DNA of 64,000 nucleotides from contig JADLAK010000036.1 of NCBI GenBank assembly GCA_020848275.1, forward strand, positions 96,271-160,270. Direction: 5' to 3'. How positions within the stretch are numbered: position 1 is the stretch's first letter; each line of letters begins with the position of its first letter. Positions 21,956 to 49,219 of the stretch are shown one piece after another. Below the pieces are notes generated by a model. That model had not been told where the DNA came from, made no database searches, and saw only the letters and a list, made by a program, of their open reading frames with translations. The position numbers and the translations under genes are program-made. The DNA is from Planctomycetota bacterium. GTDB lineage: Bacteria; Planctomycetota; UBA8742; UBA2392.

Positions 21956-22453
21956 TTAGCCGCGCCGGGTCACCGGCCGGCCGCTCAGCACGCGGCCGAC
22001 TTGCTTGATGTGCGCCTCGATGTGGATGGCGAGGTAGGCCGCAAGGTCGCGTACGGAGATCGCGTGGCCTTCACGGCGCATGCCCGTGCGCTTCATCAGG
22101 TCCGGCGTCAGCATTTCAATGACCGCGATGTTCAATGCGCTGGTCGCGCGCAGGCTGTCCAGCGCCAGGCCGACGTCGCCGTGGGCGGGGCGCAGCGCGC
22201 GCGACCATGCGTCGAGATCCATGCTGCCCATGGTCGGGTTGGGCTCGGCGATCAGCTTGCGCAGCCGCAAGCCCAGCACCTGGTCCACGGTCGCGACGTG
22301 GAAGGCGATATCGCGCGCCGACCACGTACTGGCGTCGGGCCGGAAGTCGAGCTGATCGGGTGCAACTTTGGCCACGCGCTCGCAGAATTGCTCGACGGCG
22401 GACAGGTATTTCTCGGCCAGGTCATCGGGATCGGGAGTCATGGCGGGAATCAT
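21956..22453 (-). CDS. DinB-like superfamily protein
   Basis: A 165-residue helical protein (161 if started at the ATG at 22441). The pattern fits the DinB/YfiT four-helix metal-binding fold: 'WSARDIAFHVATVDQVLGLRL' carries the first histidine, and 'LAIHIEAHIKQVGRVL' in the last helix supplies the HxxxH pair. Family members are metal-dependent transferases or hydrolases, often acting in thiol metabolism or stress, but the substrate is not predictable. It lies between the small membrane gene and the RND permease and has no clear Shine-Dalgarno. Confidence 0.75.
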   Translation of the reverse strand: MIPAMTPDPDDLAEKYLSAVEQFCERVAKVAPDQLDFRPDASTWSARDIAFHVATVDQVLGLRLRKLIAEPNPTMGSMDLDAWSRALRPAHGDVGLALDSLRATSALNIAVIEMLTPDLMKRTGMRREGHAISVRDLAAYLAIHIEAHIKQVGRVLSGRPVTRRG

Positions 22454-22516
22454 ACAGGCGTCAGGCGACAGGCGTCAGGCCGCAGTTAAAGGCCGTTAAC
22501 TGTCGCCTGTCGCCTG
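22450..22516. repeat. Inverted word-cluster repeat (GTCAGGCGACAG words)
   Basis: The left side repeats CAGGCGTCAGGCGACAGGCG; the right side repeats the complement CTGTCGCCTGTCGCCTGA, with a short unrelated centre. It spans the end of the RND gene and the start of the DinB gene. One of a class of gene-boundary elements described in the findings. Confidence 0.7.
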
Positions 22517-25500
22517 AAGCTTGCCTCCTTGATTGTCCTTCCTCCCGTTCACCCATGCCCAGAGCGTCGGGACCACCAGCAACGTGAGTAGCGTGCTGGT
22601 GGTTAAACCCACCATCACCGTCACCGCCAGCGGCTTGCGCACTTCGGCGCCTTCGCCTCCGCCCACCAGCATGTTCAGCCCGTTCTTGAACGAGAAGCTC
22701 CAGCCGCCGATCAGCGGCCACTCCATCGGCGCTGAGAGTCCGCGGCCCATCGAGGCCGCAATGCCCCCTATCCAGCCGTCGATGCCCTGCGCGGCGCCCT
22801 GCATAGGGCCGATGGCGAAGTCCATCCAGCCACTCATCGGCAAAAGGCCCAGGACGGTGGTCAAGGTTGTGATCGCAATCGGCCGCAGACGCAGCTTGCC
22901 CGCCGCAAGCGCGGCCTCGCGCGAAGTCATGCCGCGCGTTCGTAGCAAATTTGCGTAATCGACCAGCACAATGGCGTTGTTGACCACGATGCCCGCAAGC
23001 ACGATCAGGCCCAGCAGCACCATGATCGACACGGGCTGGCGCAATATAAGCAGCATCATTACCACGCCCACGCCCGCAAACGGCACGCTGAACATGATCA
23101 CCAGCGGGTCGATCAGATTCTCGAATTGCACGGCCATCACCACGTAGACCAGGAATACCGCGAGCGTCAGCGCCAGCACGAGGCTGAGGATGCTTTCCTC
23201 CATCTCGCCCGCCTGGCCCGAGAAGCCGATTGCCGCGCCGCTGAGTTCCGCCGCGGCCGCAAGCTCCTCGATGCGTTTTTTGCTTGCGCCCAGCGCGACA
23301 CCGTTGGGCTGCGCGAACACGAGCACCGCGCGTTCGTTGCCGACGCGGCGGATTTCACTGGGGCCCTCGGTGATTTCAGGCCGCGATCCCGGCGGCAGCA
23401 CGTCTTTCAAACGCGCGCCGGGCGCGACTTCCATGTCCAGCACGCGGTCGAGCGTCGATTTGTCGGCGCCGCCAAGCTCGACGAAAACGTCGATGTCCTC
23501 GCCGCGCGAACTGAACTGCGTGCTGACTTCGCCGCCGACCTTGATGCGCACCGCGCGGGTGACGGCCTCGGCGGTCAGGCCGTAACGCTCGAGTTGTTCG
23601 CGGTCAAAGCGCAGGGCAACTTGCGGCCGCCCGGCGCTGAGGCTCACGCGCACTTCGCTGAACATCGGCTTGCCGTCGTCGCGTTTGGCGCGCTCCATGG
23701 CCGCGGCCAGTATGCGGGCCGCATCGCCGAGCAGTTCGAAATTTTCTCCGCGCAGTTCAACGGCCAGCCCCGTGTTGAGGCTGAACAGCACCGGCGCGGA
23801 AAACTCCGCCGAGCCCTGCAGCAGCGGGTCGTCGTCGATTGCTGCGCGTATGCGCGTGTGGACGCGTTCAACGGTTTTTGCGGGCTCGGCGCGCGACGCG
23901 AGCGTAACCACCATGCGGGCGCGGTGGGGGCCCAGCGGGCGGTTGTCGCCGGCGTTGCCCTCGCCACCGCTTTCCGCCGAGATGCGCGCGACGTCTGCCC
24001 GCAACGCCGGCGACTTCAGGGCGTCCTCAACGACGCGCTTGACCTGCGCATCCGTGACTTCGATGCGCGTGCCCTCGGGCGCGCTGACGTCGGCGTAGAT
24101 TTCATCCTGCTGGAAGCTGGGCAACAGCTCGGTTTCCAGCCCGCGCGCCATCGACAACGTGATGACGGCGGCGGCCAGCACCGCCGCAAGCATTAGCAGG
24201 GGTTGATGCAGCAAGGGGCGCAGAATCAGCGGGTAAATTTCTTCCAGCGCCTTCCAGCCCAGGTCAAACGCAAAGCCAATCGGCCGGAACACGACGTGCA
24301 GCACGCGTTTAATGACGCGCACCGCGCCGCCAATCGCCGCCGTGACCGCATCGAGGATCGCGACAATCACCAGCGCGACGATCCACAGCGGCAACTGCGG
24401 AATCAGCGACAACCAGAAGACGACGCGTTGGCCGCGTGTGAACTCGGGCTTCGGCTTCGCAAACGTCACCACGCGCCGCGTCAGCGAAAACGCGCCGCCG
24501 CCGGTGGCGGCTGCGTGCAGGCCAAAAAACGGTGGGACCACGAACAACGCCACGACCAGCGACGCCAGCAGCGCAAACACCACCGTCAGCGCCTGGTCGC
24601 GGAACACCTGCCCCGCGATGCCCGTGACGAACACGATGGGGAAGAACACCGCCACCGAAGTCATGGTGCTGGCGACGATCGCGCCGCCGACTTCGCTTGT
24701 GCCGCGGATGGCGGCCGTCAGCGGGCCGTCGCCCTCATCGCGGCAGCGCGAAATGCTCTCGAGCACGACCGTCGAGTTGTCGACCACCATGCCAACGCCC
24801 ATGGCCAGCCCGCCCAGGGACATCAGGTTCAGCGAGATATTGAAAATGCGCATCGGGATGAACGTAACCGCGATGCAAAGTGGAATCGAAACCGCGTTAA
24901 GCAGCGTGATCTTGCCGCTGCGCAGGAAAACGAAAATCACCAGGATGCTCAATATTGCGCCGAGTGCCGCGTTGCTGGCTACATCGTTGACGGCGTCCTC
25001 GATGAAATAGCTCTGGTCCGAAATCACGCGCAGCCCAAAGCCCTCGGGCAATTGGTCCACCAGCGAACGACTGCTGGAAAACGAAAAGCTGCTGCTGCGC
25101 GCGCCGCCCATGCTGCCGCCGCGCATCGAAAAGCCGCCGCGGCTGCTGCTGCGCGTGGCGCCGGGCGTTGAGCCGCCGCGCGGTGCAGGTTCGGCCTCGC
25201 CGCGTTTCTTGCGGATCGGTTCGTAGCGGTCGGCGCCGTAGAGCGCCGCCCACACCGCGCGCGCGACTTTGACGACGTTGGCGTCGCCGACCTTCAATAT
25301 TTCCAGCATCACGCCTTCGCGCGCCGCGAAGTTCGTGTCGGCGCCCGCAAATCGCGTAACCGTGTCGCGCTCTTTCTCCATGACCGACACGTCGGCGATG
25401 TCTTTAAGAAGCACGCGACCGCGCTCGCCCCCGGCTGCGATTTCCAAGTCCTTGAGAACATCCAGCGCCTCGTAGGTGCTGACAACGCGCAGGATCACGT

Positions 25501-42536: not shown

Positions 42537-42628
42537 TACCTGTCTCGGGTCTCGAGTCGCGTGTCACGAGTCGAAAGGCCGTTCGTTGCTTTTGACGCGG
42601 GACACGAGACTCGCGACTCGGAACTGTT
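42537..42628. repeat. Inverted word-cluster repeat (CTCGGGTCTCGAGTC words)
   Basis: TCTCGGGTCTCGAGTCGCGT on the left faces GACACGAGACTCGCGACTCGG on the right (shown by words), with a centre of about 25 bases. It lies between the ApgM-like gene and hpt and touches the end of the former. Confidence 0.65.
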
Positions 42629-43886
42629 ATATCCCATGCAACAGGTTATCAATTAACCGCGTGCCGTCCTCAATGTGCTTGCGGGCGGTTTCGGCGTTGG
42701 ATTCGGTGAAAGTCAGTTTGCCCGCGTTGGGCTCGATGCCCGGCCCCCACATCAAATACGGCACCGCGCGCTCATCGTGCATGCGCGTCTCGACGCGCGA
42801 CATCAGCGTCGAAATCACCAACAGGCGCGTGTCCTTCTGCGTCTCCAGCACCTTCAGCACCGGCTTGAAGAAGTGCTTGTCGATCAGGCCGATCGCCTTC
42901 ACTTTGCCCAGGACGTCGCCCTGATGCGAGTGGTCGTCCGGGTAACTGAAATGCGCCAGCACGAACTCGAAGTTCTGCAGCGCGCTTTCCGTCGTCACAC
43001 GGAGCTTGTTGATTTCGTCGGTCTCGTGGTCGCGCTTCTTTAAAGTCTCGATATCGACCTTGACCATGCGGCCGCTGGGGTCGCTCAGGCCGGTGGTCGC
43101 CGTGCCGCCGGGGTTGGGTACCGCAAGCCCCGTGGCGACACCTACGCCGCGAAACAGGTTCGAATAACTCACCATCGCGCCCTTGATGCCAAAGGTCTTG
43201 TGGAAGCCCGGCACCTCGATAGTTGTCCCGCCGCCCCAGATCCAGACCGCGTTGGCGGCAAGTTTGCCCTTGGCGACTCGCGCCCTGTTGACTTCGTGTT
43301 TGGCCAGCACCGCGGGCGCTTCATCGATTATCTTGCTCAGCAACTCCTGCCCCGGTCCCTGAGGCATCTGCTCGGCCAGCGGCTGGTTGATCAGGTTGAT
43401 CGCGCTGACGTCCCGCAGGCCGTGGAAATCAATGCCGTCGATAATGAGAAGATGGTTGTGGCCGGCGACCGGCACAAAGCGCAGGCGCGGCAGGTTGAAA
43501 TGCTTGGAGAGCGCCATCACGAGCTGGCTGCCCTCGATGTCGCTCAGGCCGCCGGCGCGCGAGTCCGCGAGTTTCCCGTTCTGGACGTTCACAAGTTGCA
43601 GCCGAAAGGCCCATTCACCCTCGGCCAGCACCTGGCCTGTCGCCAGCGCCTCGTAGTAGCCGCGGCCGGTGCGGTAGGGGCCCGGCGGGTAGCCAAGCAC
43701 GGTAAACAGCGCCGAGAGCGTCTCGGCTTCCTCGCCCTTGCGAATGGTGCGCACGGTGCCGATCTCGCCCGCCGCCGAAAGCTTGTCCAGCACAGGCGTT
43801 GTGGCGTGTTCCAATGGCGTCTTGCCCCCCAGTTCGGCCAGAGGGGTGTCGGCGAGGCCATCGATCATAACCAGCAGGTGGCGCAT
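42627..43886 (-). CDS. Divergent ApgM-like phosphoglycerate mutase/alkaline-phosphatase superfamily protein
   Basis: Start set at ATG 43886 ('MRHLLVMIDGLADTPLAELG'); 419 residues. The sequence follows archaeal-type 2,3-bisphosphoglycerate-independent mutase: 'MIDGLAD', 'GKTPLEHATTPVLDKL', 'LGYPPGPYRTGRGYYEALATG', 'NPGGTATTGLSD', 'HSHQGDVLGKVKAIGLIDK' and 'AVPYLMWGPGI'. Compared from memory with ApgM, two active-site features differ: the 'SDT' nucleophile segment reads 'TLS', and the 'DHST' metal motif before 'VPYLMW' reads 'LMSR'. It may therefore be inactive or have another function. If active, it would interconvert 3- and 2-phosphoglycerate. Confidence 0.75.
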   Translation of the reverse strand: MRHLLVMIDGLADTPLAELGGKTPLEHATTPVLDKLSAAGEIGTVRTIRKGEEAETLSALFTVLGYPPGPYRTGRGYYEALATGQVLAEGEWAFRLQLVNVQNGKLADSRAGGLSDIEGSQLVMALSKHFNLPRLRFVPVAGHNHLLIIDGIDFHGLRDVSAINLINQPLAEQMPQGPGQELLSKIIDEAPAVLAKHEVNRARVAKGKLAANAVWIWGGGTTIEVPGFHKTFGIKGAMVSYSNLFRGVGVATGLAVPNPGGTATTGLSDPSGRMVKVDIETLKKRDHETDEINKLRVTTESALQNFEFVLAHFSYPDDHSHQGDVLGKVKAIGLIDKHFFKPVLKVLETQKDTRLLVISTLMSRVETRMHDERAVPYLMWGPGIEPNAGKLTFTESNAETARKHIEDGTRLIDNLLHGI

Positions 43887-44026
43887 TGCAGTTTGGTGAC
43901 GATAACGGGGCGCGGGCGCGATGCAAGTAGCGCCGCGGCTGGGTAGCATGCCCCCGCGTCGGAAAATCCGGAAGCTTTGCGCTCGCCGCACGTTAAGATG
44001 GGACAGCCGGCTCAATTGGGGAATCC

Positions 44027-47000
44027 ATGCGTTGGATAGTGCTGCTGTTGACGTTACTTGCAGCGCCGCTGCTTGGCGCCAAAGACACGGAACTTTTGTC
44101 GGCGTCGGCGAAGTTTGACCCGGCGGAGGTTGTGGCGGGCGCGGAAGTGACGTTGAAGGTTAGCTTCACGGTCGCGCCGGGCTACCACGCGTATCACAAA
44201 GACAATCCCGGCATCGGCCAGGGCATGACGCCGAAGCTTACTGAGCTTGCGGGCATGGAGACCGTCGGCGAGATCAAGTGGCCGGATTATGTGGTGAAGA
44301 CGGACCCGGACCTCGGCGACGACTGGGTGCTGGAGGACAGCTTTAACCTGGTGTGGACGCTGAAGGCTCCCGCGAGCGCCAAGGACAAGCTGACGGTGAA
44401 GGGCAAGTACGAAGCGCAAGTGTGCAATGATGACGGATGCACGATGCAGGAAGGGAAGTTCGAAGCGACGCTGACGATCAAAGCCGCCGAGACGCCGAAA
44501 GAAGCGCCGCCTAAAGAGACGCCGAAGGAAACGCCCAAGAAGGATGGTTCGCCTAAAGAAGGCAAATCGGGCGGGAACGTTGAACCGACGGAACAATCGA
44601 GGTTTGAAGATGAAATCGCGTTGCTTCGCGCCGAGGTAAGCGCACTGAAGAACAACAATTCAACCGTGTTCGACTTCAAAGACGTCGGACCGTTCGGCGG
44701 GCTCAAGACTGGCGAGACCTTTAGGCTGGTTTACGCGGACGAGCCGCGCGTCATCGCCGACAACACCTTCCAAAGCGGCTGGAACACCTGGGCCAATGCC
44801 AAAAAGGGCGACTGGGTTGAATACAAGTTCGCCGCGGGCATGACCAAGAAATTTGAAGTCACAGATGTCAGCGACGCGGGCGTCAGCGTCACCGTCACAT
44901 TGACGCCGCCCGAAGGCGCCAAACCTGTCGTGACGCCCGCCAAGGGCCAGCCGTGGTCGAAGATTTCGCTCGTTAGCGGACTTATACCATCTGAGGCCGA
45001 GTGGCCCTTTGAGCCCGTCAAACGCAAGATCGGCGAGCGCGAAATCGAGTGTGTCGTTTCGAAGTGGTCCAGCGGCGACACCACTGTCACCAACCTTTAC
45101 AGCACCGCCATCCCGTGCGGCGGCGTCGTTTGCTGCACCACCAATGGAGAGGAACGCATCTGGCTGAGTGCGTGGGGCACGGTGGCCGCCGAGGCTCCCA
45201 AGCCCGTAGAAGCGCCGAAACCGGATGCGCCCAAGGGCGAGGAAAAAGTCGAATGGCCCAAGGACTTGCCTGCCGGGCCCAACGCGCAGGTGTTGGCGCG
45301 TTTCAAGATGACGCCGCGCTTTGCCGCCGAGAAAGTCAAACCGGGCGCAGAAATCACGCTCGAACTCGCGTTTGAAACCTTCGATCTCGGCATCAAGGAC
45401 GAGTCCACCGGCAAGACTGCCGGCCTGAATCACCTTTATCACCCGAAGTCGCCGTCCGGACAGGTGCTTGACCTGCAATTGCTGAACACCGCGGGGCTTG
45501 AGCCCGCGGGCGATTGGCAGTACCCGCCCCATCATGTCACGCCCGCCGATCCCGAAAATTTCATCGATGAAGCCTGGGTGTGGGACGGCAAGTTCAGCAT
45601 CACGCGCAAGTTCAAAGTCCCGGCTGACGCAAAGCTCGGAAAGATACTGCTGACCGGCACGGCCAACGGCCAGGTCTGTGACGAGGCCGGCTGCCTGCCG
45701 CTACGCAAGTTCGGCTGGTTTGCGTCGGTCGAAGTTTCTGCCGACGCGCCCGCCATCGTCGACCCGCCCAAAGACGGCGGCAAGGTCGACCCGCCGAAAG
45801 ATGGCGGCAAGGTCGATCCACCCAAAGACGGCGGCAAAATTGAACCGCCCAAGAACAACGGCGGGGCCGGGACTCCCCAGACACAGGACAGCGGGCTGCT
45901 CGCGTTTTTGCTGACGGCTTTTGGCGCGGGACTGCTCTCGCTGCTGACGCCGTGCGTGCTACCGGTGCTGCCGCTGACGATCGGATTCTTCGTCAAGCAG
46001 AGCGAACAAAAGCGTTCGCCGCTGGTCACGGCCGGCATCTATGCAAGTTGCATCATGGGCAGCTACGTCGCCATCGGCCTGATCACCACGCTGGCGCTGG
46101 GCAAACAGGGCGCGCAGTTGTTCTCGACCAACGGCTACGTCAACGTCGCGCTGGGCCTGATGTTCGTCGTGTTCGCCCTCAGTTTCCTTGGTTTGTTTGA
46201 GCTGCGCGTGCCGGTGTTCATCACCAGCAAGTTCTCGCGTGCGCAGTTCGGCGCAACCAAGCAGGGCAAGGGTTACGTCGCAGCGTTGCTCAGCGGCTCG
46301 TCGTTTTCGCTCATTTCGTTTTCGTGCACGGCGCCGATTGCGGCGCTGATCCTGGCCAAGGCCGCGGCAGGCGATTACTGGACGCCGACCCTGGGCATGC
46401 TGGCTTACTCGGCGGGCATGGCGATGCCGATCTTCATCATGGGCCAGTTCCCCGCCCTGATGAAGAAGCTGCCGAAATCCGGCGGCTGGATGAACGCGAT
46501 CAAGGTCGTGTTCGGCTTTGTCGAGATCGCGCTGGCCATCAATTACTTCGCCAACGCCGACATGGCGTTTCAGGGCAAGATCGCGCCGACGATCATCACG
46601 CGCGAAATCGTCATGGCCACCTGGATCGTCTGCGCGGGCCTTTCGGGCTTCTACCTGCTCGGGCGCTTCCGCCTGCCCCACGACCACGAACCCGTCGAAC
46701 AAATCGGCGTCGTGCGCACGCTCATCGCCGCGGTGTTCCTGGTCTTTGCGCTGTTCCTGACGCCGGGCCTGATCAACGGCACGAACATGGGCTTTGTACT
46801 CGAAGGAATCCTGCCGCCGCCCGGTGAAAACCACAGCGCCGGGGGCAATGGTTCCGGCGGAGGCACGGTCAGCAACGACCCGCACAAACTTCCGTGGCTG
46901 CGCGATTACGAAGCCGGCCTGAAAGCCGCCAAGGCGCAGGGCAAACCGATATTCGTCGATTTCACGGGCATCAACTGAAAAAACTGCCGCACGATTGAGC

Positions 47001-47269
47001 GGACGATCTTCCCTCAACAAGCGGTATTCGGCCAGTTGGCCAAAGATTTCATCCTGGTGCAGCAGTTCACCGATGACGACACCGACCTCAAGGCCCGCGA
47101 AATCTGGGACAAATACGGCGGCAAGGCGGTGCCGTTTTACGTCATCCTCGACAAGGACGGCAACTTCGTCGACGAACTTGTTCCCGACGCGAGCCTGTCG
47201 AATGTCGCGGCGGAAAAGTTCGCGGCATTTTTGCAGCGCGGCAAGGCGGGCGGGCACGTCGCGAAATAG
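44027..47269 (+). CDS. dsbD: Selenocysteine-containing DsbD-type thiol:disulfide interchange protein
   Basis: A 1080-residue product if the TGA at 46976-46978 is read as selenocysteine (residue 984). Order: signal peptide; DsbD-alpha-like domain with 'QVCNDDGCTM' (to about 155); Glu/Lys/Pro linker; an unassigned domain (about 215-390) with 'AIPCGGVVCC'; a second DsbD-alpha-like domain with 'GQVCDEAGCLPL' (to about 575); three 'DPPKDGGK' repeats (577-612); the DsbD-beta membrane domain (about 622-875) with C643 in 'TPCVLP' and C767 in 'SFSCTAP'; and a thioredoxin domain. Its active site reads 'FVDFTGIN-U-KNC-R' (U984, C987), where homologs have CxxC. The frame runs on through 'GKAVPFYVILDKDG' to TAG. 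A bSECIS-like hairpin follows the TGA. Role: carries electrons from cytoplasmic thioredoxin to periplasmic thiol proteins. Alternative: nonsense mutation. Confidence 0.85.
46995..47017 (+). promoter_or_regulatory. Candidate bacterial SECIS element
   Basis: In mRNA, UUGAG (46995-46999) pairs with CUCAA (47013-47017) and GGA (47001-47003) with UCC (47010-47012), leaving C47000 bulged on the 5' side. The apical loop is CGAUCU (47004-47009) with G at its second position. The loop starts 26 bases after the UGA. An 8-bp stem, a 5'-side bulge, a small loop with G in the first two positions and a distance of 16-37 bases all match the published bSECIS description. Confidence 0.7.
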
Positions 47270-47317
47270 CGGCGTTGCTTTAGGCCTAATCCACTTTCGC
47301 CAACGAATTGCATTGAG

Positions 47318-47348
47318 TTGGAGCGTTTATTCCGGCGATAGTTACAAT
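47318..47348 (+). promoter_or_regulatory. Possible promoter for the first GGDEF gene
   Basis: TACAAT (47343-47348) is a good -10 box. TTGGAG (47318-47323) is a poor -35 at a long 19-bp spacing. It lies 48 bp before the chosen start. Confidence 0.3.
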
Positions 47349-47395
47349 ACGTTGGACCCGGGCAGGGGCACGACACGCGAGTGTTGAGCAAGCCA

Positions 47396-49219
47396 ATGCC
47401 TCCGCCCGACAACACGTCTGCCAGAACTCGCGCCGTCAGCGGCTCCCACGCCGTTCCCGCGCCCGTTGACCCCAACGCTCAGCTACTGCACTCGGTGCTT
47501 GACCAGATTTCGCTCGTCGCCATCGTGCTCGACATCCAGTTGCGCATCCTGCGCCTGAATCCCGCGGGCGAGAAGTTGTTCGGCGTCTTTGCGGCCAACG
47601 TGCAGTACCAGCCGTTTTCGCGAGCCCTGCCGATCCTGGCCGAGATCAACGCCGACCACGCATTTCAACGCGTGATCGCCTCGGGCGCGCCGGCGCAGGT
47701 CAAGGAGGTCGCGCTGCAAAGCGCCGACGGCAAGCGCCTGTTCTTCGACTTCGAACTCGACCCGATCCGCGACGAAACCGGCGCGGTCGCGGGCATGAGC
47801 ATCATCGGCCAGGAAGTCACCGAGCGTGTGAAGTTGCGCCGCGAGGTCGCGCGCCAGGTCGCCGACCTTGTCGGCGCCAACCAGGTCTCGACCGAGCTTC
47901 GCGCGCGGCTGGCGCGCCAGAACGACGACCTGATGGCGCTCAACATGGTCAGCAACATCCTTCGCCGCACCATGGACCTCGACCGCGCGTTTGTCATCAT
48001 CGCCAGCGCCTTGACGAGTCAAGAGGGCGGCGGCTACGATCACGCCATGATCTTCCTCGCCGACGCCGAGCGCAAAAACCTGGTCGGCCAGATCGCCGTT
48101 GATTCCGTGGGCCAGCGCGACGCGTTTGACATCTGGCGCGACCTCACGCGCCACGACGCGCCCATGGAAAAGACACTGGAGTCCACGCATCCCGGGCTCG
48201 CCCACCGCTGGGGCGACAAGACCAAAATCCTGCGCACCATCCGCATTCCGCTCGATGACGCCGGCAGCATCCTCGTGCACGCCATGAAAACCGGCCACAC
48301 CGTCACCGACGACACGCGCCGCCAGAAGGGATTTTCGGAACTGCGCATGCATCCCGACATCATCAAACATTTCGGGACCACCAGCTTCGCCGCAGCACCC
48401 CTGCTGACCGACACCGAGGCCCTTGGCATCGTGGTCGTCGATTCATCAAGCCGCCCGCACAAGTTTTCGTCCGATCGCCTGACCATGCTGCAGATGTTCG
48501 CCAACCAGGCGGCGCTGGCCATCCAGAACGGCATGATGTTCGCCAACGTGCTGGACCGCGCGCAGCGCGACAGCCTCACGCGCCTGTACAACCACGGCCA
48601 CTTCCAGGACACGCTGCGCGCCGAGCTCGCCCGCTCGCAGCGTTACGGCTTCCCGGTCAGCCTTATCATGGTCGACATCGACCATTTCAAGAAATTCAAC
48701 GACAACCACGGCCACCAGACCGGCGACGTCGTGCTGCAGGAAATGGCAAGGCTGCTTTCGGCCCATGTGCGCGCCGCCGACGTCGTGGCCCGCTACGGCG
48801 GCGAGGAATTTGCGGTGCTGTTGCCGCAAACCACGCACGAAAACGCGCTCGACCTCGCCACGCGCCTGTGCCGCGACGTAAAGGAAGAAATCGCCATACG
48901 CGGCACGCGAGGCGAGCGCCTCACCGTCACTGCAAGCTTCGGCGTCGCCACCTTCCCGCAACATGCGCAGGACGCCGCGGCGCTGGTGTCGCTGGCCGAT
49001 ACCGCGCTGTATGTGGCCAAGGACCAGGGCCGCAACCGCGTGATTTCGGCGGGCAACGAGTTGCCCAAGCGCGTCGACAAGATGGCGCCGCCGACTTTCA
49101 GCGGCGTCGGCATCCCGCCGATGTCGACCAGCAGTTCCGGCGCTTATTCACCCGTGGACATGAACACCATCAGCGTGACCAAACCCCGCGGCACGACGCG
49201 GCGCTCCGGCCGTCCCTAG
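47396..49219 (+). CDS. PAS-GAF-GGDEF diguanylate cyclase, copy 1
   Basis: A probable cyclic-di-GMP synthase of 607 residues from ATG 47396 (GTG 47381 is an alternative; neither has a strong Shine-Dalgarno). A PAS domain spans about 20-135 ('VLDIQLRILRLNPAGEKLFG', 'GMSIIGQEVTERVKLRREV'), a GAF-like domain about 170-375 ('RTMDLDRAFVIIASALTSQ', 'FAAAPLLTDTEALGIVVVD'), then GGDEF about 385-550. The active site is 'GGEEF' (468-472) and the inhibitory I-site 'RAAD' (459-462) lies five residues before it, so product inhibition is expected. A Ser/Thr/Pro-rich tail ends the protein. No transmembrane segment: a cytoplasmic sensor. It is tandem with a second copy. Confidence 0.92.
   Translation: MPPPDNTSARTRAVSGSHAVPAPVDPNAQLLHSVLDQISLVAIVLDIQLRILRLNPAGEKLFGVFAANVQYQPFSRALPILAEINADHAFQRVIASGAPAQVKEVALQSADGKRLFFDFELDPIRDETGAVAGMSIIGQEVTERVKLRREVARQVADLVGANQVSTELRARLARQNDDLMALNMVSNILRRTMDLDRAFVIIASALTSQEGGGYDHAMIFLADAERKNLVGQIAVDSVGQRDAFDIWRDLTRHDAPMEKTLESTHPGLAHRWGDKTKILRTIRIPLDDAGSILVHAMKTGHTVTDDTRRQKGFSELRMHPDIIKHFGTTSFAAAPLLTDTEALGIVVVDSSSRPHKFSSDRLTMLQMFANQAALAIQNGMMFANVLDRAQRDSLTRLYNHGHFQDTLRAELARSQRYGFPVSLIMVDIDHFKKFNDNHGHQTGDVVLQEMARLLSAHVRAADVVARYGGEEFAVLLPQTTHENALDLATRLCRDVKEEIAIRGTRGERLTVTASFGVATFPQHAQDAAALVSLADTALYVAKDQGRNRVISAGNELPKRVDKMAPPTFSGVGIPPMSTSSSGAYSPVDMNTISVTKPRGTTRRSGRP

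Follow-up and report, generated by a model that had tools for sequence, protein, structure and literature searches.

A predicted selenocysteine-containing DsbD in a planctomycete genome, and the alternation of UGA and cysteine codons at its active site among relatives

The window analysed here is a stretch of 64,000 nucleotides from one contig of a Planctomycetota bacterium. A long reading frame lies on its forward strand at 44027-47269, with neighbouring genes at 42627-43892 (reverse strand) and 47381-49219 (forward strand). Translation confirmed the original observation that a single TGA, at 46976-46978, falls on the first position of a thioredoxin CxxC motif in a frame otherwise open to its terminal TAG. 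In the standard reading the product stops after 983 residues; with UGA read as selenocysteine (Sec) it has 1080 residues, and the codon becomes residue 984, which opens the gamma-domain motif (FTGIN-U-KNC-R).

The Pfam models DsbD_N, DsbD_TM and Thioredoxin_7 all matched the protein above their cut-offs. A first alpha (nDsbD-like) domain, with strands in the structural model, occupies residues 22-148 (44090-44470; PF11412, E = 1.6e-13, 51.1 bits against a cut-off of 25) and contains the cysteine pair C133-x4-C138. It is followed by a lineage-specific insert of about residues 212-391 (44660-45199), in the region that in relatives holds additional alpha domains and one more thioredoxin-like domain. 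A Pfam search gave no match for the insert, and it was poorly modelled, with low pLDDT; it is homologous (47% identity) to an open reading frame on another contig of the same genome (C58, L043) and has matches elsewhere in the genomes of the family. When used as a query, that reading frame retrieved two other proteins besides itself and no more. The second alpha-like domain (about residues 426-570, 45302-45736; C551-x4-C556) was not recognised by Pfam and is assigned from strands in the model and from its invariant cysteine pair. A short repeated linker of DPPKDGGKV units (45764-45850) joins it to the membrane part. The DsbD membrane domain spans residues 626-839 (45902-46543; PF02683, E = 1.5e-30, 106.6 bits against a cut-off of 27.1) and carries C643 and C767, which, like C551 and C556, were invariant across 55 aligned sequences, the window's protein among them. 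The gamma thioredoxin domain (residues 957-1042, 46895-47152; PF13899) contains U984-x2-C987, and its fold matched the gamma domain of Escherichia coli DsbD (2fwe). The frame thus encodes the architecture of a DsbD: an alpha domain with a cysteine pair, a membrane domain with two cysteines, and a C-terminal thioredoxin domain with UxxC.

The database entry for this protein is 983 amino acids long. Truncation at the UGA by automatic annotation had been anticipated and was borne out, as 26 of 44 close database homologues (P0003-P0046) stop exactly at that site. Names given to the homologues include 'sulfite exporter TauE/SafE family protein', 'cytochrome c biogenesis protein CcdA' and 'hypothetical protein'. 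The closest complete Cys homologue (P0003, 62%) is labelled Nitrospira sp.; it comes from a 2.3-kb contig and is possibly mis-binned.

The membrane-plus-gamma part was used to search 392 planctomycete genomes, a sample of this single phylum consisting mostly of draft assemblies. Matches at E ≤ 1e-45 were obtained in 152 genomes and the site was examined in 131; among the 21 left out were matches ending before the gamma domain or at a contig end. The column holds UGA in 87 homologues, TGC in 35 and TGT in 9. TAA, TAG or a sense codon for any residue other than Cys occurred in none of the 131, and so the non-Cys codons or further stops that would have spoken against the original prediction are absent from this site. 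The placement of UGA at the gamma motif is far beyond chance, and more of the planctomycete DsbDs examined have UGA than Cys. The 87 UGA genomes are spread over 30 family codes; in the window's own family of 16 genomes, 12 have UGA and 4 have Cys. The expected alignment of U with Cys was found in two comparisons: the column falls on the first CxxC cysteine of a Bacteroides cytochrome-c-biogenesis thioredoxin domain (3f9u), and the family profile places it on the first Cys of the E. coli DsbD gamma domain (2fwe). A TAG was seen within the matched DsbD stretch of two genomes (L076 in G277, and G058), unlike the UGA cases; L076 has TGC at the column.

Downstream of the UGA, dN/dS was 0.08-0.19 in five of six diverged pairs. 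The sixth pair (G001/G010) gave 0.55 downstream in an ungapped comparison that is probably misaligned, as is probably the case for the upstream value of 0.81 for pair 009/010, also from ungapped strings; a seventh pair (013/014) had too few changes and was set aside. On a quick FastTree tree of the 131 sequences, with the active-site letter masked, 12 U/C changes were needed, at least 8 of them forced by well-supported branches, as compared with a mean of 36.8 when labels were shuffled on the same tree. On this tree Sec and Cys have replaced one another several times. A GGDEF gene 3' of DsbD is common to the window, to another UGA relative (L022) and to a Cys relative (L026), and a phosphoglycerate mutase gene 5' of DsbD is common to the window, L022 and a relative with Cys in its gamma motif (L018). 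These shared neighbours indicate that Cys and UGA forms occupy the same locus in at least some cases. The order phosphoglycerate mutase, DsbD, PAS-GAF-GGDEF is retained in L022. No functional partner was recognised among the few neighbours inspected, these two genes included.

The search for selA, selB, selC and selD that had been proposed as a check found all four in this assembly (4.41 Mb, 111 contigs, 88% complete). The match to selA scored 468 bits. That to selB (306 bits against a cut-off of 242) is on the same contig as the window and ends about 2.3 kb short of the window's first base. The tRNA-Sec (70.8 bits, anticodon UCA) lies 820 bases from selA, and selD (L016, G000:C98:15986-16903) carries an in-frame UGA of its own in GAGUGCK (GAGUGCKIP). 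A second tRNA-Sec match above the cut-off (C42, 48.2 bits) was identified by ARAGORN as tRNA-Ser and was rejected. SelA (E ≤ 1e-60) was present in 240 of the 392 sampled genomes overall, and in 84 of 87 with UGA-DsbD as compared with 37 of 44 with Cys-DsbD (Fisher p = 0.03). The three UGA genomes in which SelA was not found (L087 in G078, L112 in G266 and L167 in G221; completeness 90, 91 and 67%) are possibly incomplete assemblies. All 16 genomes of the window's family have SelA, its four Cys-DsbD genomes included, and thus the Cys forms in this family are not due to loss of SelA.

Other in-frame UGA codons were also seen. The window's genome contains a likely further selenoprotein (L188, G000:C48, near 22414-22743) with a thioredoxin domain and the motif FTGEFUVPCRR, in a frame of 366 codons that is open apart from the UGA. 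Some relatives of the window's protein have, in the same frame, a second thioredoxin-like domain (DFNGxYUGxCRKMER) that itself contains UGA. Two of these proteins would have two Sec residues, U335 and U998 in L021 (G007) and U389 and U882 in L040 (G015); another, L018 (G003), has U903 in the second domain and Cys in the gamma motif.

The RNA immediately downstream of the codon was examined for a bacterial Sec insertion element (bSECIS). At 46995-47017 the window can fold into a bSECIS-like hairpin, UUGAG[C]GGA-CGAUCU-UCCCUCAA, with 5+3 base pairs, one bulged C on the 5' side and a six-base loop (CGAUCU, 47004-47009) with G second. The eight stem pairs, 5' bulge and loop were as originally described; the distance from the UGA, given as 26 bases, is actually 25. 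Folding of 46976-47030 (55 nt) gave -17.2 kcal/mol (z = -3.15; 1 of 200 shuffles as good). The inner 44 nt reached only z = -0.93 (27 of 200 shuffles as good), and so the window's hairpin by itself is weak evidence. An Rfam scan of 43000-49000 returned two sub-threshold matches elsewhere and none at the hairpin.

Comparisons among the homologues support such an element in relatives. In the 47 nt 3' of the codon the mean fold z was -1.63 for the 87 UGA genes and -0.48 for the 44 Cys genes (Mann-Whitney p = 4e-7, in a comparison that ignores kinship), while control regions of the UGA genes gave -0.12 upstream and -0.31 further downstream. The UGA genes have more RNA structure 3' of the codon than chance would give, and the Cys genes show this to a lesser degree. 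Kinship again ignored, bulge-free stems of at least 6 bp occurred near the expected place in 67 of 87 UGA genes and 18 of 44 Cys genes; the window, whose stem is bulged, is therefore among the 20 UGA genes without such a stem. Eight of the 12 UGA genomes in the window's family, forming one clade in the tree with 4 distinct sequences, share a 7-bp hairpin, with loop GGA, which begins ten bases 3' of the UGA; that of the window lies further downstream. Across the 4 sequences 28 of 28 cells were paired and three of the seven pairs were changed on both sides, so that the arm residues change together (Thr-Ser, Leu-Asp, Thr-Phe); the same positions in the family's four Cys homologues were paired in 17 of 28 cells. 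In shuffles of the four sequences the number of paired cells was equalled in 1 of 500, the covariation score in 1 of 500 and the count of pairs changed on both sides in 232 of 500. Adding G105 and G256, both picked for the same register, brought the count to 42 of 42 cells paired and 6 of 7 pairs compensatory. Column pairing at a fixed register across all 87 UGA genes gave no clean stem (top z about 4, over unrelated column pairs), probably because hairpin registers differ between clades. The third base of a Glu codon was coupled to the first base of a Phe/Leu codon in UGA genes (33,2/23,16; p = 4e-4) and not in Cys genes (9,2/18,5; p = 1), a post hoc finding that ignores kinship.

That the UGA is simply a stop, leaving a truncated DsbD of alpha and membrane parts with a gamma domain that is dead or separately made, is how gene finders treat it, both in the 983-residue entry and in the 26 homologues with the same end, and NCBIfam offers no Sec-DsbD model that the window's protein passes. 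A broken gene, however, would be expected to yield TAA, TAG and other sense codons, and the column contains only UGA and Cys; the low dN/dS downstream in five of the six diverged pairs, the Sec machinery and the structured RNA after the codon likewise argue against a stop, which we consider very improbable. Still more remote is a changed genetic code with UGA reassigned to an ordinary amino acid. A tRNA with a UCA anticodon is indeed present, but it is the tRNA-Sec near selA; moreover, in 50 of 87 UGA relatives the first stop codon beyond the site is itself UGA (TAG in the window), and the alternative residue is always Cys, never Trp or Gly. Reassignment, a pseudogene and an assembly error were accordingly rejected, given the identity of this tRNA and the strict UGA/Cys column in 131 homologues.

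A different kind of alternative accepts Sec insertion and supposes that the protein is dedicated to a single substrate, such as an envelope partner peculiar to the lineage, with the extra alpha domain and the insert setting specificity. The two alpha-like domains and the insert fit such a role, as do relatives whose single chain combines several alpha domains with another thioredoxin-like domain, and the protein misses the cut-off of the DsbD subfamily model NF001419. Against it, the protein retains the cysteines of the DsbD redox relay and the neighbours inspected yielded no recognisable dedicated partner gene. We consider a dedicated role a real but lesser possibility.

The reading that we prefer is Sec insertion into a DsbD, and the original interpretation as a Sec-dependent DsbD is supported by the presence of the machinery and by a column of UGA or Cys in 131 of 131 homologues. 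From the codon, its strict alternation with Cys, the machinery genes, the domains and the cysteines, all directly computed, we infer Sec incorporation: the UGA at 46976-46978 is very probably read as Sec by this genome's SelA, SelB, tRNA-Sec and SelD, with the hairpin likely helping, and the predicted product is a full-length DsbD with a UxxC gamma domain. The two alpha CX4C pairs, the membrane cysteines and the gamma motif are all present, and the protein therefore likely relays electrons as a DsbD does, with Sec making the attack. We infer the electron path, its partners and the kinetic benefit as follows. The membrane pair C643/C767 would carry electrons from a cytoplasmic thiol donor to Sec984 and Cys987, which form a pair outside the membrane. 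In the model Sec984 sits at the start of helix 985-993, and as the attacking nucleophile it would pass electrons on to both alpha domains, at C551/C556 in one and C133/C138 in the other, each a CX4C pair. These domains may in turn reduce envelope partners, the candidates being disulfide isomerases and cytochrome c maturation or peroxide-reducing proteins. Sec, being ionised at neutral pH, would speed the exchange and make oxidative damage reversible. Were selenium absent, translation would end after residue 983, and the relay would lack a functional gamma domain.

DsbD is the gate for reducing power into the cell envelope. With UGA in 87 and a Cys codon in 44 of the 131 homologues, selenium likely feeds an envelope reducing pathway in many members of the phylum. 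We lean, by a small margin of confidence, towards a broader reading in which selenium does the work of the trans-membrane reductant relay across much of the Planctomycetota, with Sec-DsbD in the majority, repeated swaps between Sec and Cys despite retained machinery, bSECIS elements steering the residues after the active site, and some relays using two seleniums. If the predicted reading holds for most planctomycetes with such a DsbD, the quality of envelope proteins and the assembly of cytochromes would depend on the selenium available to the cell, and a great many database proteins would be missing their active domain. The natural UGA and Cys homologues, some with common neighbour genes, allow a direct test, within one membrane enzyme, of what is gained by having Sec in place of Cys; they are also material for deriving bSECIS rules by covariation.

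Among known systems, E. coli DsbD (2fwe, 2fwf and others) shares with the window's protein the alpha-membrane-gamma order, a cysteine pair in the alpha domain, two membrane cysteines, and a thioredoxin gamma domain with its active motif at the same aligned place. The window's protein differs in its length of 1080 residues, in having Sec where E. coli DsbD has the first Cys of gamma, and in carrying two alpha-like domains and an additional insert. Its alpha pairs are CX4C; that of E. coli we take to be CX5C. The NCBI subfamily model for DsbD (NF001419) scored 145.6 bits, below its cut-off of 330. TsoB, a rhodanese/DsbD fusion-like selenoprotein (NF045694), is similar in being a Sec protein with a DsbD-like membrane part; its model scored 142.6 bits, below the cut-off of 805, with the best stretch at residues 617-911. 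TsoB has two Sec in a UxxxxU motif, as opposed to UxxC in gamma, and no rhodanese domain was among the Pfam matches of the window's protein. CcdA (5vkv) resembles the membrane domain (E = 5.5e-05) and presumably has neither alpha nor gamma domains.

Sec in thioredoxin domains of this kind has a longer record, part of it filed under cd02953, which we take to be the DsbD gamma domain. A 2006 survey lists three Sec 'thiol:disulfide interchange proteins' and, in the text available, names two Geobacter species and Syntrophus (PMC1794560); the available text of the 2008 GOS survey has 22 'Trx-like 2 (Thiol disulfide interchange protein)' sequences under cd02953 with UxxC (PMC2398784). Table 1 of a 2026 review of prokaryotic selenoproteins (PMC13188914) gives the predicted selenoprotein family 'Thiol:disulfide interchange protein' (PF13098, UxxC; representative WP_011366075.1) as well as TsoB, and in the main text available the word DsbD occurs once, for TsoB. 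The window's gamma domain also matches PF13098 (28.0 bits against a cut-off of 27.0) and has UxxC (UKNC), the domain and motif of that family. The portions of these three sources that were available describe neither a membrane DsbD architecture nor a planctomycete distribution. A planctomycete genome paper (PMC4807772) places its selenoprotein candidates in a supplementary table, according to its available text; a term search of the deep-Sep article (PMC12013277), as far as its text was available, gave no match to such a protein; and literature searches of similarly partial texts found no paper announcing a full-length Sec-DsbD. The original statement that no Sec-DsbD of this layout has been characterised thus stands for the layout in the literature searched, partial as those texts are, and needs amending for predicted Sec interchange proteins with UxxC, listings of which go back to 2006-2008. 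What is known already is Sec in a domain of the DsbD-gamma type; what is new, against the literature searched, is the whole relay and how widely it occurs in the phylum.
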